Shown here piece by piece: positions 12,264 to 18,013 of a DNA stretch of 64,000 nucleotides (position 1 is its first letter; every line of letters begins with the position of its first letter). This DNA comes from Parafannyhessea umbonata. Its GTDB lineage: Bacteria; Actinomycetota; Coriobacteriia; Coriobacteriales; Atopobiaceae. Below the pieces are notes generated by a model. It saw only the letters and a list, made by a program, of their open reading frames with translations, did not search any database and was not told the DNA's origin. Location: assembly GCF_900105025.1 (NCBI RefSeq), contig NZ_LT629759.1, positions 124,001-188,000 on the forward strand, written 5' to 3'. The position numbers and the translations under genes were made by a program.

Positions 12264-13091
12264 CTACTTGTCGCGATTGTTCCCGTGGCCCGGCTTGGCG
12301 TCGAGGTCTGCGTCCGCGCCGGCGTGCGTGCCGTGGAACAGCTCGAAGAAGTCGTGCACGGCATCGCGGCTTGTGTCCGACGTGCGGAAGTGGAACTCCG
12401 GGTTCTTGGTCTTGAGCTGGCGGTACTCCGCCATCATGTCGCCGAAGATGTGCGCGTTCGAGGGCGGCGTGTACACGATGGAGTTTGCGCCTGCCTGGAT
12501 GGTCTCTTGTATGGACTCGTCCGTGCGTCCGCCCGTGGCGATGATGGGCACGGCGGGGAAGTCCTTGCGGATGTTGCGCACGACCTGGGCCGTCTTGGCG
12601 CCGGCGGCGACGTTGAGGATGGTGACGCCGGCATCGAGGCGCGCCTGCACGTCCTCGTCGCCGGTGGCGATGGTCGCGATGATGGGGATGTCGATGACGC
12701 GGCGGATGAGGCGGATGTTGGAGTTGCTCATGGGGGAGTTCACGACCACGGCGAACGCGCCCTGGGCCTCTGCGTCCTGCGCGATGACGACGGAGCGCAT
12801 GCCGCGCGTGGTGCCGCCGCCGACGCCCACGAAGACGGGGCTGACCGCGGCGCTGATGACGGCCTGCGAGATGGCCTGCTGCGGCGTGAACGGGTAGACG
12901 GCGAGCACGGCGTCCGCGTTGCAGTTGCGGATGATGGCGACGTCCGTGGAGAAGACGATGGACTTGATGCGGCGCCCCATGATGACCATGCCCTTGGCCT
13001 GGTAGATGACGTCTGGGACCTGAATGGAGTGCGCTCGCAGCGTGCCGGTGATGCGTGGGACGTGGTCTTCGTCCTGGGTTGTGGTGACCAT
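12264..13091 (-). CDS. TIM-barrel protein of unknown function
   Basis: 275 residues with a clear (beta/alpha)8 rhythm and a C-terminal phosphate-binding loop (IIATGGRTDESIQETIQAGA then SIVYTPPS). Other segments are GVGGGTTRG, VVNSPMSN, IIATIATGDEDVQARLDAG and VAAGAKTAQVVRNI. Similar proteins in Firmicutes are often annotated only as 'hydrolase'; I cannot name a reaction. The last 25 residues are Gly/Asp/His-rich. The ATG has GAAGGGAAGG upstream. It is transcribed divergently from the glutaredoxin-like gene. Confidence 0.65.
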   Translation of the reverse strand: MVTTTQDEDHVPRITGTLRAHSIQVPDVIYQAKGMVIMGRRIKSIVFSTDVAIIRNCNADAVLAVYPFTPQQAISQAVISAAVSPVFVGVGGGTTRGMRSVVIAQDAEAQGAFAVVVNSPMSNSNIRLIRRVIDIPIIATIATGDEDVQARLDAGVTILNVAAGAKTAQVVRNIRKDFPAVPIIATGGRTDESIQETIQAGANSIVYTPPSNAHIFGDMMAEYRQLKTKNPEFHFRTSDTSRDAVHDFFELFHGTHAGADADLDAKPGHGNNRDK

Positions 13092-13207
13092 GCGTTTACC
13101 TTCCCTTCAGGTGTAGGGGCGTTGCCACCTGTGCGGTGGCGGTCCCGCCGGCGTGACTATGGTCGTTAGGATATCCAATTCTTGGGGCGCCAAACAGTCA
13201 TTTTTTG

Positions 13208-13220
13208 CAAACGACGTTTG
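13208..13220. promoter_or_regulatory. Small perfect dyad in divergent promoter gap
   Basis: CAAACG-A-CGTTTG lies in the 227-base gap between divergent genes, next to an AT-rich TCATTTTTTGC stretch. It may be an operator for either gene; no regulator can be assigned. Confidence 0.35.
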
Positions 13221-13318
13221 GCCACGTTTGCCCCCGCGGGGTTCTGGGTAGACGTTCTGCAGGAAACGGAACGCCGCCCGCACGGAGCGCGGGCGGCACG
13301 AACGACGGGAGGCCCCCC

Positions 13319-13630
13319 ATGGCCAACTTTGACGACCTGAAGCTCTACGTCCTGCCCGGATGCCCCTTCTGCGCGAAGGTGGACGCGTTTTTGGACGAGC
13401 ACGACATCCAGATCGAGCACCTGGACGTGACCCAGGGCACGAACGGCGACGACCTTGTGCGCATTGGCGGCAAGAGGCAGTGCCCGTGCCTGCTGATTGA
13501 CGGCAAGCCAATGTACGAGAGCGGCGACATCATCGACTACCTGGCCGGTCGCATCGGCGCGGACGCACCGAAGCACGAGGGCGGCGGCGCATGCCACTTT
13601 GTTCCCGGCGGCGGCCACGTGTGCGACTAG
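13319..13630 (+). CDS. Glutaredoxin-like protein
   Basis: A 103-residue thioredoxin-fold protein with the dithiol active site GCPFC at residues ~14-18, then the cis-Pro region QCPCLLIDGKPMYES and a helix SGDIIDYLAGRIG, as in glutaredoxins/NrdH-type proteins. The short tail is Gly/His/Cys-rich (HEGGGACHFVPGGGHVC), which could bind metal and is not part of the standard fold. The start has GACGGGAGG six bases upstream. Confidence 0.82.
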   Translation: MANFDDLKLYVLPGCPFCAKVDAFLDEHDIQIEHLDVTQGTNGDDLVRIGGKRQCPCLLIDGKPMYESGDIIDYLAGRIGADAPKHEGGGACHFVPGGGHVCD

Positions 13631-13705
13631 CGTGGGGCGATTGCCGGGCGCGACGCCGGCGCGCGCGGCATTGTAGAGTGCGGCACTGGTACTATCGACT
13701 GGTTT

Positions 13706-13737
13706 GGCGGGCGGACTCCGTTGGGGGTCCGCCCGCC
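13706..13737 (+). terminator. GC-rich hairpin after the glutaredoxin gene
   Basis: 11-bp stem GGCGGGCGGAC / GTCCGCCCGCC with a 10-base loop, followed by TTGCTG. The T-run is weak, so its strength is uncertain. The remainder of the 355-base gap 13631-13985 shows only a degenerate copy of the dispersed motif (CTCTTCTCGGC) near 13772. Confidence 0.55.
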
Positions 13738-13985
13738 TTGCTGTGCCGCTCGCCGTTTGGGGGAGGGGGGGCGGCTCTTCTCGGCAGGGGAGGAAGGCAT
13801 CTGGAAGGCGGCGTGGACGGCTTGCGTTTGGCAGCGCGGATCGCGGCCGGAGGCAACGCTCTGGCGTGCGGGAGCGCCCGCCCCGTGCGAGTTCGCGTGC
13901 AGACATGTGAAAGGCGACATCTGGCCCGAGGCGCCGCTGGCGGAAAGGGTGCGGTACGCATGCGGGCGAGGGATAGTATGCCGGC

Positions 13986-15065
13986 ATGTCGATTGCGGTC
14001 GTGGGACATATTTCGAGCATAGAGGCGCATGACCTTGGCCTTGTAAGTGCTGACGGCGCGAGACTGCCAGTGGGAATGGCGAGCGGTACGATGGATGTGG
14101 ACGACTTGCGGGTCCAGTCCCTTCGCGTGTCTCCACCCACGCGTATGAGGCCGGATGTCGTGGCGTCGTTGGTGAGGGCGGGTCTACCTGCGCCCGTGCA
14201 CATGCTTGTGCCTGTGAGGGCGGATGCATTTGCCACACGACGTGTAATTCCCCACGGTTGGTCGTACGTTCAGCCATGGGACGACCTGGCTCGGGTCGAG
14301 ATAGAGTGCCCTGCAAACGTGTTTGCGTGTCCTCCCGAGATGGCTCTGATGCAGATGGCGCGGGGTCTTGGCGTGGCAAAGACGGCACTTCTTGTTGATC
14401 AGGTGCTGGGGACGTATAGGGCTTGTAGACCGGAGGCAATCGAATCATATGGTCAGATAGAGGGGGTCTCGATCGAAAGCTGCACGGACGAGTGTGGGAC
14501 GGCTACGGCGTACGGCCTTTCGCCACTGACTACGATTGTTAGGTTGTCAAACTACTTGGATGCGATGGCGGGTGCTCCTGGGGCTAGGTCGGTCAGGAGG
14601 TCGCTCCCGCTGGTGGCCGATGGTCTGGCATCGCCGCTTGAAGCCCAGACATACGCCCTGGCGTTTTGCTCGCGCCACATGGGAAGCCTTGGGTTGCCGA
14701 AACCACTCGTGAACCACGGGGTTGAGGTTCCCATTGAGGCCCGAGGTTGCTTTGGCTCTGCGTTTATTAGACCTGATTTCTGGTGGCCTGAACAGCGAGT
14801 AGCCCTTGAAGTCCTCGGAGTCCGCTGGCACGACGGTGCGCAGGGAATCACCCAGACGTCCATGAGGGAAAAGGGGTACTACGCCATGGGAGCCTCCTGC
14901 ATCACAATCACCGAGAGGGAGATTCGCATGCTGTCGAGCTTCGAGGCCGCGATGGCGGTGCTGGCGAAACTCCTGGGGGTGAAGCTCCGGCCACCAACCA
15001 AAGCGTTCGAAAAAATGAGAGGTCAGTTGCGTACCGAGGTTCTGGACGTACGCCCCGCGCGTTAG
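13986..15065 (+). CDS. Orphan protein with DUF559/Vsr-like nuclease domain
   Basis: A 359-residue protein. The N-terminal ~250 residues resemble AbiEi-type or winged-helix proteins linked to such nucleases but I cannot assign them firmly. The C-terminus has RPDFWWPEQRVALEVLG (Asp264, Glu275), the hallmark of DUF559/Vsr-like endonuclease folds, then a helix with SMREKGYYAMGASCITIT. Possible roles are a DNA-repair or restriction-type nuclease, or a toxin/antitoxin component. It sits 85 bases before the dyad-repeat array, on a stretch with less biased codon use than its neighbours, which suggests acquisition. The start is uncertain, as the RBS GAGGGA is distant. Confidence 0.55.
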   Translation: MSIAVVGHISSIEAHDLGLVSADGARLPVGMASGTMDVDDLRVQSLRVSPPTRMRPDVVASLVRAGLPAPVHMLVPVRADAFATRRVIPHGWSYVQPWDDLARVEIECPANVFACPPEMALMQMARGLGVAKTALLVDQVLGTYRACRPEAIESYGQIEGVSIESCTDECGTATAYGLSPLTTIVRLSNYLDAMAGAPGARSVRRSLPLVADGLASPLEAQTYALAFCSRHMGSLGLPKPLVNHGVEVPIEARGCFGSAFIRPDFWWPEQRVALEVLGVRWHDGAQGITQTSMREKGYYAMGASCITITEREIRMLSSFEAAMAVLAKLLGVKLRPPTKAFEKMRGQLRTEVLDVRPAR

Positions 15066-15150
15066 CTCGGCTGGACGGAAGGTGCAGTGTGCCGAACAAA
15101 TCATCTTATAGGCTGCCTGGGAATCTCGGGTAGATGTGGGGCTGGAAGTC

Positions 15151-15552
15151 TCACTATCTGACAGATCCTACAGCTGTCAGATAGTGATGGGGTATGAGGG
15201 CTTGCACGTTGCCAAAGGGGCACTTAAGGCATCATTATTTGACAGGTCACGTTGCTGTCAGAAAGTGGGGGTTCCAGGAGTACCACTATCTGACAGGTTC
15301 AACATCTGTCAGATAGTGAGGGTTTCTGGTCATCACTATCTGACAAGTTGTACTGCTGTCAGAAAGTGGGAGCTCTTCAACCCCCATTATCTGACAGGTG
15401 GCGATTCTGTCAGATAATGGGGGTTCCTGGCATCATTAACTGACAGGTTATGCTTCTGTCAGAAGGTGAGAGAGTTTGAGGCCCCAAGGGGCCTCCTTCC
15501 ACGCAAATACGCCCCACAATCTGACAGCAATCGCTTCTGTCAGATTGTGGGG
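15151..15552. repeat. Array of seven dyad repeats (CTGACAG-N9-CTGTCAG)
   Basis: Seven inverted repeats centred near 15169, 15250, 15301, 15351, 15402, 15451 and 15532. Each has a CTGACAG/CTGTCAG core (first arm CTGACAA in unit 4, TTGACAG in unit 2) around exactly 9 variable bases. Units 1, 3, 5 and 7 have perfect arms of 13-17 bases whose outer parts differ but stay complementary (CACTAT/ATAGTG, CCATTAT/ATAATGG, CACAAT/ATTGTG). Units 2, 4 and 6 have imperfect outer arms, all with a GAAAGTG or GAAGGTG right side. The central five are spaced 49-51 bases apart and the outermost two 81 bases. A GGGGTTYCTGG-like sequence follows several units. There are no T-runs, so these are not ordinary terminators. 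They fill the 523-base gap between the nuclease-like gene and the aldo/keto reductase. Confidence 0.95.
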
Positions 15553-15588
15553 TTTCCTGTCCCATTCCGCTCCGCCACCCTCCTCGCG

Positions 15589-16704
15589 CTACTCCAGCGT
15601 GGCGGCTGCCTCCTTAAGCAGGCTCACGATGGGCAGGTGCTGCGGACATGCCTGCTCGCACTGTCCGCACTGGATGCACTCGGACGCCAGCGTGTCGCCG
15701 GCGCGCCGCACGTAGTCCTTGCGCGAGCGCTCCAGGTTGCCAAAGAGCTTGTACTCGTTCACGGTGCGGAAGATGTCCGGAATGTGCATGTGCACGGGGC
15801 AGCCGCCCGTGCAGTAGTGGCACGAGGTGCACGCAATGCGATCGATTGCGTCGAACGCGCGACGGACCTCGTCCACCGTGGCCGCCTCCTCCTTCGAAAG
15901 CGGCTTGAAGTCGCGCATGAAGCTCAGGTTGTCCGCCATCTGCTCCGGGGTCGACATGCCACTCAGCACCATCATCACGTTCGGAAGCGATGCCACAAAG
16001 CGGATTGCCCACTGTGCGGGCGAGGCCGTCGCGTCCGCGGAGCGGAAGATCTCTGCGACCGCAGGCGGAAGCGCGGCCAGCGTGCCGCCCTTCACGGGTT
16101 CCATCACCACCACGGGAACGTCGTGCGCCACGGCGACCTCGTAGTTCGCGCGAGACTGCACCACCGGGTCCTCCCAGTCGGCGTAGTTCAGCTGCAGCTG
16201 CACAAACTCCACCTCGGGATGCTCCGTCAGCAGGCGGTCAAGCAGTTCCGGCCCGTCGTGGAACGAGAACCCCATGTGCCGCACCAGCCCGCGCGCCTTA
16301 AGGTCGCGCACGTACTCCCAGATGCCGTACTTATCGTACAGCCCCACGTTGTCGCTGGACAGCGCATGCAGCAGATAGAAGTCGAAGTAGCCGGCGCCGG
16401 TGCGCTCCAGGCTCTGCTCAAACTCCGCCTTCGCGGCGGCCTCGTCCTTCGCGGCCCACTCGCCGGCGTTCAGCTTCGTCGCAAGGTAGTACGAGTCGCG
16501 CGGGTGGCGCTCAACCAGCGCCTGTCGCACGGCGTCCTCCGACCCCTCGTACACAAAGGCGGTGTCCACGTACCTGCCGCCCGCCGCAAGGAACTCGTCC
16601 ACCATTTGCGCGGTCGTCCCGACGTCGATGGTCCCGTCCTCGCGCTTCGGCAGGCGCATCATGCCAAATCCCAGCTTGATGCAGTCAGGTGCAAGGGTCC
16701 TCAT
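15589..16704 (-). CDS. Aldo/keto reductase with C-terminal 4Fe-4S motifs
   Basis: A 371-residue fusion. Residues 1-~270 are an aldo/keto reductase barrel (GFGMMRLP, DTAFVYEGSED with catalytic Asp/Tyr, ATKLN with Lys, YLLHAL with His). From ~290 a ferredoxin-like module carries CTSCHYCTGGCP and CIQCGQCEQACP, enough for two 4Fe-4S clusters. This architecture is widespread in anaerobes and probably couples ferredoxin to carbonyl reduction; the substrate is unknown. The ATG at 16704 has GGAGG six bases upstream. The gene ends 36 bases from the last dyad of the array. Confidence 0.88.
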   Translation of the reverse strand: MRTLAPDCIKLGFGMMRLPKREDGTIDVGTTAQMVDEFLAAGGRYVDTAFVYEGSEDAVRQALVERHPRDSYYLATKLNAGEWAAKDEAAAKAEFEQSLERTGAGYFDFYLLHALSSDNVGLYDKYGIWEYVRDLKARGLVRHMGFSFHDGPELLDRLLTEHPEVEFVQLQLNYADWEDPVVQSRANYEVAVAHDVPVVVMEPVKGGTLAALPPAVAEIFRSADATASPAQWAIRFVASLPNVMMVLSGMSTPEQMADNLSFMRDFKPLSKEEAATVDEVRRAFDAIDRIACTSCHYCTGGCPVHMHIPDIFRTVNEYKLFGNLERSRKDYVRRAGDTLASECIQCGQCEQACPQHLPIVSLLKEAAATLE

Positions 16705-16811
16705 GGCAGCCTCCAGCTTGCTCGTCGCGGTCGCTTCAACTACCAATTGTGCACCAATCGGCGTCCCGCGTGCGTCCCGCGTCGCCACGCCGCGCAGGCC
16801 CCTCCGCCGCC

Positions 16812-16824
16812 GGGCGAGAAGAGC
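16812..16824 (+). repeat. Isolated copy of dispersed motif (GGGCGAGAAGAGC)
   Basis: Lies in the 143-base gap between the reductase and the HAD gene, followed by CGCCCC. Confidence 0.6.
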
Positions 16825-16847
16825 CGCCCCTTTCGCGGGCGCCCAGC

Positions 16848-17798
16848 CTACGCCCGCGGCCTGAAGTACGGCAGCGACTCCACCTTCCGGTCGCCGGCAG
16901 GCCGCGCGCGCATGGCGAGGCCGCGCTCGTTTTCCGCCTCGCACATGAAGTCCGGCATGCGGCCCTCCGTACTCGCGCGGGCGATGTCCTCTATCGCGTC
17001 CGCCACGGCGTCGTCCGCACTCGCGCCAATGTGCCAGCGCGCCGCGCTTGCCACCTCCGGAACGGCGTTCGCAACGGCGACGGAGTTCGGATAGAACCCC
17101 AGAAGCTCCAGGTCGTTCTCCGCGTCGCCAAACGCGGCCACCTCGTCCACGCCAATGCCCAGGTGCCGGCGCAGCAGCTCCGCTCCCTTCGCCTTCGACC
17201 AATCCTTAGGCGCAACGTCGAACATGGGCACCTGCGGCCCGGGAGACATCAGCCTGATGCCGGGGCACAGCGCCTCCAGGCGCTCGCGCACCTCGCCCAT
17301 CCGCCCCACGCCGCCCATCACGTGGATGTTCGACTTCACCAGCGGACCGTCCGGCAGGTGGTCCATCACCACCACGTCGTCGCTGTCCGCGCGAAACGCG
17401 CGCCGGGCGGCGTTAGGGTCGTCGCTCACGATCACGCGCACGGGCTCCATCGTCTCGGCGCGCGTGATCACGTTCAGCATGAAGTTTCGGTCTCCCACCA
17501 GCTCCGCCGCCAGGCGCTCCATGCCCTCGCGGTCAAGCTCCACCTGTCCAATCAGCTGTCCGTCCGCAAGCACAAGCTGGCCGTTGCTCATCACGGCAGA
17601 CTGCGTGCACTCGCGCGCAAAGCCAAACGCCGCGCATGCGCCCTGGCGGATCCTTCCCGTCGTGGCGGCAAACGTCACGCCCGCGGCCTGCGCGTGCCTG
17701 ATGGCGGCGATGGCGTGGTCGGTCGCGCGCGTCAGCCCAAAGTGAATCAGCGTCTCGTCCAGGTCGGTCAGGATGAGCTTTATCAAACGTCTTCCCAT
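16848..17798 (-). CDS. HAD-superfamily (Cof-type) phosphatase
   Basis: 316 residues. Motif I is LTDLDETLIHFG (the usual DxDGT has Glu for Gly). TTGRIRQG is motif II; SKAKGAELLRRHLGI and FGDAENDLELL form the Mg-binding C-terminal motifs. It probably dephosphorylates a sugar phosphate or cofactor. The start at 17798 (MGRRLIKLIL) matches the family but lacks a good Shine-Dalgarno sequence. It is a paralogue of the HAD gene at 1312 with low similarity outside the motifs. Confidence 0.8.
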   Translation of the reverse strand: MGRRLIKLILTDLDETLIHFGLTRATDHAIAAIRHAQAAGVTFAATTGRIRQGACAAFGFARECTQSAVMSNGQLVLADGQLIGQVELDREGMERLAAELVGDRNFMLNVITRAETMEPVRVIVSDDPNAARRAFRADSDDVVVMDHLPDGPLVKSNIHVMGGVGRMGEVRERLEALCPGIRLMSPGPQVPMFDVAPKDWSKAKGAELLRRHLGIGVDEVAAFGDAENDLELLGFYPNSVAVANAVPEVASAARWHIGASADDAVADAIEDIARASTEGRMPDFMCEAENERGLAMRARPAGDRKVESLPYFRPRA

Positions 17799-18013
17799 CT
17801 GCAATGCGCCGCCAGCCGGGCGCGGGCGTGCTTCCAAGGTCCACCATTATGCACGACGCTTGTGGTCTATCCGTGTATGGCGCGCGCGGCCAGCGCCTTG
17901 CGGGCGCTGCGGCAACGCCCGCTCAAATCTAGTGCGCCCACGCGCCCGCGTGACGCATAATTGGAACGGAACGCACGCATCCCGGCGAGCACCCGTCGTA
18001 AGGAGACCATGGC

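Follow-up and report, generated by a model that had tools for sequence, protein, structure and literature searches.

Nine syntenic arrays of helically phased dyads as putative protein-binding platforms in the chromosome of Parafannyhessea umbonata

The chromosome of Parafannyhessea umbonata contains nine intergenic arrays of a 35-bp dyad that are phased on the DNA helix, share a conserved linker and are found at the same loci in another species of the genus. In the explanation that we favor, and in which we place about even confidence, these arrays are chromosomal platforms for a putative sequence-specific DNA-binding protein, arranged as a scaffold that would present the bound protein on the same face of the DNA. 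One of the nine lies in the window, the 64,000-nucleotide stretch of contig NZ_LT629759.1 (positions 124,001-188,000) that was analysed, and it was from this stretch that the original prediction described seven units with fixed nine-base loops. The loop between CTGACAG and CTGTCAG is indeed exactly nine bases in all seven units and the coordinates were right, but only one of the nine arrays had been covered.

The window array and its relatives

Seven 35-bp dyads of the form CAC-N3-CTGACAG-N9-CTGTCAG-N3-GTG occupy positions 15152-15549 of the window, in the intergenic region between a convergent pair of genes for a nuclease-like protein and an aldo/keto reductase. Their cores, which start at 15158, 15239, 15290, 15340, 15391, 15440, and 15521, are perfect in five units and carry one mismatch in the other two, and the start-to-start spacings (81, 51, 50, 51, 49, and 81) agree with the earlier description of 49-51 bases inside the array and 81 at both ends. 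The alternation of perfect and imperfect units that had been noted is present here, with perfect arms in units 1, 3, 5, and 7 and not in units 2, 4, and 6, but none of the other arrays repeats it. Half-sites with at most one mismatch are found mostly inside the array, and the four strays in the window, all with one mismatch, are fewer than the six expected by chance. A search of window positions 13000-18000 with Rfam gave no match above the gathering score. The features are as follows.

13986-15065, + strand: nuclease-like gene, PD-(D/E)xK/DUF559-like by eye; a neighbor only, outside the array system
15152-15186: dyad unit 1 (CACTATCTGACAG-N9-CTGTCAGATAGTG), arms perfect; the array-end unit on the nuclease side, matched by the covariance model too
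15187-15232: 46-bp linker of the first 81-bp spacing, of the conserved type (GAGGGC ... A/T tracts)
15233-15267: dyad unit 2, imperfect, with a TTGACAG core and mismatched outer arms
15284-15318: dyad unit 3, perfect
15334-15368: dyad unit 4, imperfect, with a CTGACAA core
15385-15419: dyad unit 5, perfect, with full pairing of a stem that reaches 19 bp (15379-15425)
15434-15468: dyad unit 6, core perfect, outer arms mismatched
15469-15514: 46-bp linker of the second 81-bp spacing, holding a perfect 8-bp inverted repeat, GAGGCCCC-AA-GGGGCCTC
15515-15549: dyad unit 7, perfect, with a 16-bp stem; it ends the array some 40 bp from the aldo/keto reductase stop codon
15589-16698, − strand: aldo/keto reductase gene with a C-terminal 4Fe-4S domain; a convergent neighbor only

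A pattern search of the 2.35-Mb chromosome that allowed up to two mismatches gave 38 dyads versus two for a reversed-pattern control. With a single exception, the 38 sit in nine arrays of 2-7 units located at 111.4, 139.2 (the window array), 600.1, 1123.5, 1213.9, 1485.3, 1600.7, 1864.6, and 2196.9 kb. A covariance model made from 74 dyad units, the E-values of which are rough, revealed no solitary unit in the chromosome outside the nine arrays. The array had been regarded as a product of selection rather than chance, with random scatter in the genome as the contrary outcome, and the excess over the control and the clustering of the dyads bear this out.

The arrays are intergenic and most begin 14-120 bp after a stop codon. 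The surrounding genes, as called with a simple codon-usage script, are co-directional at six loci, convergent at two and divergent at one (L013). Neighbors, which were named by reading the protein where there was no family match, include genes for an IMP cyclohydrolase-like protein, a lactate/malate dehydrogenase-like protein together with an L,D-transpeptidase, an RNA helicase, a GmrSD restriction protein, hisS, a purine nucleoside phosphorylase, a KdpD/KdpE-like pair with a cation ATPase, and murE and rph. They have no obvious function in common, and the orientation of arrays and loops relative to the genes is variable. The nine positions were also tested for origin/terminus bias and for even spacing, neither of which was significant, and they show no clear departure from random. 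The array at 1214 kb adjoins a likely type IV restriction gene with an N-terminal GmrSD and a C-terminal RAMA domain (L009:1669-3843).

All nine arrays are syntenic in Parafannyhessea umbonata 105184 (G055), the second species of the genus, which has about 90% nucleotide identity to the window genome and the same gene order at the nine loci, although the numbers of units per array differ between the two species. Near the hisS array there is a transposase (L010:425-1888), IS21-like and of istA type as judged by eye from its protein, which is not aligned at that locus in G055. One array of G055 contains a tandem duplication of about 184 bp (C27:52096-52484, L051), in which three units were copied together with their linker, and this shows the growth of an array in whole modules. 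No arrays are present in the third genus member (G054), and at both loci examined (two of the nine) a short intergenic region is found instead. Arrays are likewise absent from the 137 further genomes of the 140 in the family and from the remaining 395 of the 398 Coriobacteriia genomes in the class sample, and no match was found in virus, phage, and plasmid records. As only two species carry arrays, the whole set may have been gained or lost in a single evolutionary event. Occurrences of the double-dyad pattern in Saprospiraceae, Ignavibacteria, Chloroflexi, and others proved on inspection to be different palindromes or chance matches. A separate family of paired palindromes, GACCTGACAGGT...ACCTGTCAGGTC, was seen in a Saprospiraceae genome and an Oscillochloris genome (L030:5139-5242, L041:6336-6422, and L034:about 930-1030), and it has only the letters CTGACAG/CTGTCAG in common with the dyads. 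No description was found in the literature searched for the sequence or for palindromes in Olsenella.

Spacing, linker and pairing of the arms

In the two species together, the start-to-start distances fall into six classes, 39-41 bp (5 cases), 49-52 bp (24), 61 bp (5), 70-71 bp (3), 80-81 bp (21), and 112 bp (1), and the single 112-bp gap contains an extra unit with an expanded loop. The best common period of these spacings is 10.14 bp (resultant 0.96) and, when each distance class is counted once, about 1 in 3000 random sets is equally good. This test and those of covariation were picked after the data had been looked at, and part of the phasing could come from duplication history, because the spacings of 81 and 51 recur. 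The 81-bp spacings have a 46-bp linker with a consensus of roughly AG.gg.t..GAGGgcgcaaa.g.gc.ttTT.CccGcaaAaa.cCat, which includes A/T tracts. In each species taken singly, all 2000 rotation controls fall below this consensus, which after orientation fitting reaches 466 versus at most 200 in the controls. The arrays at L010 and L012 consist of exactly one 81-bp module each.

The core letters are conserved across 75 units, and the core pairs (5-11) are paired in 485 of 525 cases versus 484.7 expected when arms are swapped within arrays, so there is no compensation. A core that is conserved while its substitutions are uncompensated fits a sequence that is read in duplex DNA. The compensatory arms of the original prediction survive in the outer pairs (12-14), which are paired in 172 of 225 cases versus 146.1 expected (within-array p = 0.003, 0.0005, and 0.001), but not in the core. 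Of the two kinds of unit, only those at array ends give a significant outer-arm signal (89/108 versus 75.3 expected, p < 0.001), the interior units giving 83/117 versus 78.9 expected (p = 0.13). Templated repair between the arms of a palindrome may be another source of matched arms.

Proposed protein-binding platforms and the alternatives

Protein-binding arrays are favored because of the phasing, the conserved but uncompensated core, the A/T-tract linker, the orientation that is indifferent to strand, and the lack of single units. A symmetric protein would bind to each 35-bp dyad, probably as a dimer whose subunits occupy one CAC-N3-CTGACAG half-site each. The two-fold protein site offered earlier as one option is the best reading of the evidence. 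Successive dyads that are whole helical turns apart would place the bound proteins on one face of the DNA. In the commonest module, in which a dyad, a 46-bp A/T-tract linker and a second dyad make up 81 bp or eight turns, the two bound dyads are predicted to touch across bent linker DNA and to generate a higher-order nucleoprotein complex, which at these intergenic positions may serve as a chromosome-organizing or silencing/insulating site, while at gene ends some end units would also have been shaped into hairpin terminators. The array type is best described as a putative multi-site nucleoprotein array. The dyads, their phasing, the linker consensus, the synteny between the two species, the lack of solitary units and the terminator-like end units are seen directly in the sequence, whereas we infer the protein, its same-face binding, the bending and the chromosomal role. 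Against this explanation, the outer-arm covariation of end units and the T-tracts behind several gene-proximal units show selection at the level of RNA or hairpin on at least part of the array, and the array positions are not clearly non-random. All of the data are compatible with a mixed state in which the interior is a protein array and the edges are terminator hairpins.

The main alternative, tentative and given clearly less credence, is that the units are serial RNA hairpins that act as tandem, largely bidirectional terminators or 3′-end barriers at gene ends. In addition to the location of most arrays shortly past a stop codon and the covariation of end units, this has in its favor that the gene-proximal end units at L007, L008, L010, and L011, and weakly so those of the window array, form long hairpins (−30 to −40 kcal/mol in the units that were folded) with T-tracts behind them on the upstream gene's strand. 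In the window array, the − strand of unit 7 forms a hairpin of about −30 kcal/mol with a weak T-rich stretch after it, and the array as a whole, when folded, lies 13 sd below shuffles. Clusters of hairpins that serve as terminators have been described (PMC8355165). These data suggest that end units double as terminators, and such a role could explain part of the outer-arm covariation. However, T-tracts are missing from most interior units, so that the GC-rich hairpin with an immediate T-tract after a stop codon that defines an intrinsic terminator is seen in the gene-proximal units of four loci, weakly in the window array, and not in most interior units. The covariation of interior units is not significant. 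The fixed CTGACAG core, the 10-bp phasing and the conserved 46-bp linker are not needed by terminators, the L013 array is situated between divergent genes, the sense-strand mismatches at co-directional loci (23 G-T versus 21 A-C) show no bias to G-U wobble, and a terminator scan, by its own rules, called none in the window array.

The other explanations are less probable still. A REP/BIME-like palindrome family that was once mobile and is now fixed would account for the resemblance to BIMEs (PMC2817692), which are likewise composite intergenic arrays of palindromes with fixed spacer motifs, and for unit numbers that vary between species. However, the REP-like element of the original prediction is refuted by the lack of a Y1_Tnp/RAYT gene (PF01797) in the window genome (G000), G055, and G054, where control genomes were positive, and by the lack of solitary copies. 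Further points against this family are that there are about 38 copies rather than hundreds, that nine loci common to two species of about 90% identity give no sign of movement, and that the GTAG head outside a short hairpin that is typical of REPs was not seen. The inverted 13-bp arms flank an asymmetric central region of nine bases, a 13-9-13 layout like that of lox/FRT sites, which are 13-8-13. Tyrosine recombinase genes are present in all three genus genomes, although none was singled out as a trans-factor, the extraction of open reading frames being poor. Site-specific recombination is nevertheless quite improbable, as the central regions vary among units and gene order at the nine loci is constant between the two species. 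It is also very improbable that the arrays are bidirectional promoters, even though every dyad reads CTGACA-16-GATAGT on both strands and the region has nine promoter-like matches versus 0.3 expected, as the second A of the −10 box, which ought to be near-invariant, differs in about one quarter of the units and promoters do not need 35-bp symmetry. Least credible is that the array serves the adjacent nuclease gene as a target or operator. The two are physical neighbors, also in G055, but eight arrays are elsewhere beside other genes, and relatives of the nuclease-like protein, which has no match in Pfam, NCBIfam, or PADLOC, occur in 125 of the 140 family genomes, often many per genome and nearly all of them array-free, so that the association proposed earlier does not hold.

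Returning to the protein-binding platforms, a bolder and at present doubtful proposal is that the arrays are dedicated architecture sites, centromere-like or loop-anchoring, on both chromosome arms, where a putative lineage-specific protein would assemble a complex of defined geometry on phased dyads and bent linkers. If true, this would be a nucleoid-organizing system unlike parS, matS, or BIMEs. That the nine arrays are precisely built, restricted to one lineage, identically placed in two species and never present as single units implies that a dedicated factor binds them and that their task is chromosome-wide. Arrays can be deleted singly and the putative binder could be caught with short DNA, which would provide a direct test of nucleoprotein assembly by phased dyads and bent linkers, and the set is also a case for how such a system appears or vanishes inside one genus.

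Comparison with known systems

The closest system in layout is sopC/parS of plasmid F, the SopB-bound centromere, in which twelve 43-bp repeats contain ten 16-bp inverted repeats (PMC6238139), that is, tandem units each with an inverted repeat bound by a dimer. The arrays share with it tandem dyads at regular spacing, but they differ in being nine separate chromosomal arrays off the origin, with a 35-bp dyad, several spacing classes and no known ParB partner. A chromosomal parABS centromere was rejected, as the arrays do not contain the parS consensus (TGTTTCACGTGAAACA) that such a centromere has near the origin; the true, ordinary parS sites of the host are at 2,064,743-2,064,982, and the arrays are 132-941 kb away. 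REP/BIME elements with RAYT, for which terminator and protein-binding roles have been proposed (PMC2817692), are superficially alike in their extragenic palindromes, composite clusters and conserved inter-palindrome motifs, whereas the dyads described here come without RAYT or solitary copies, are few, stay at fixed loci, and have helical phasing and 9-base loops. Hairpin-cluster intrinsic terminators also place several hairpins after stop codons (PMC8355165), but here there is a strict common core, phased spacing and a conserved linker, and most units are without a T-tract. Finally, the stem-loop sequence (SLS) families of bacteria are repeated intergenic stem-loops within one lineage (PMC2267715), whereas the present dyads occur only in clusters, are syntenic and are phased on the DNA helix.
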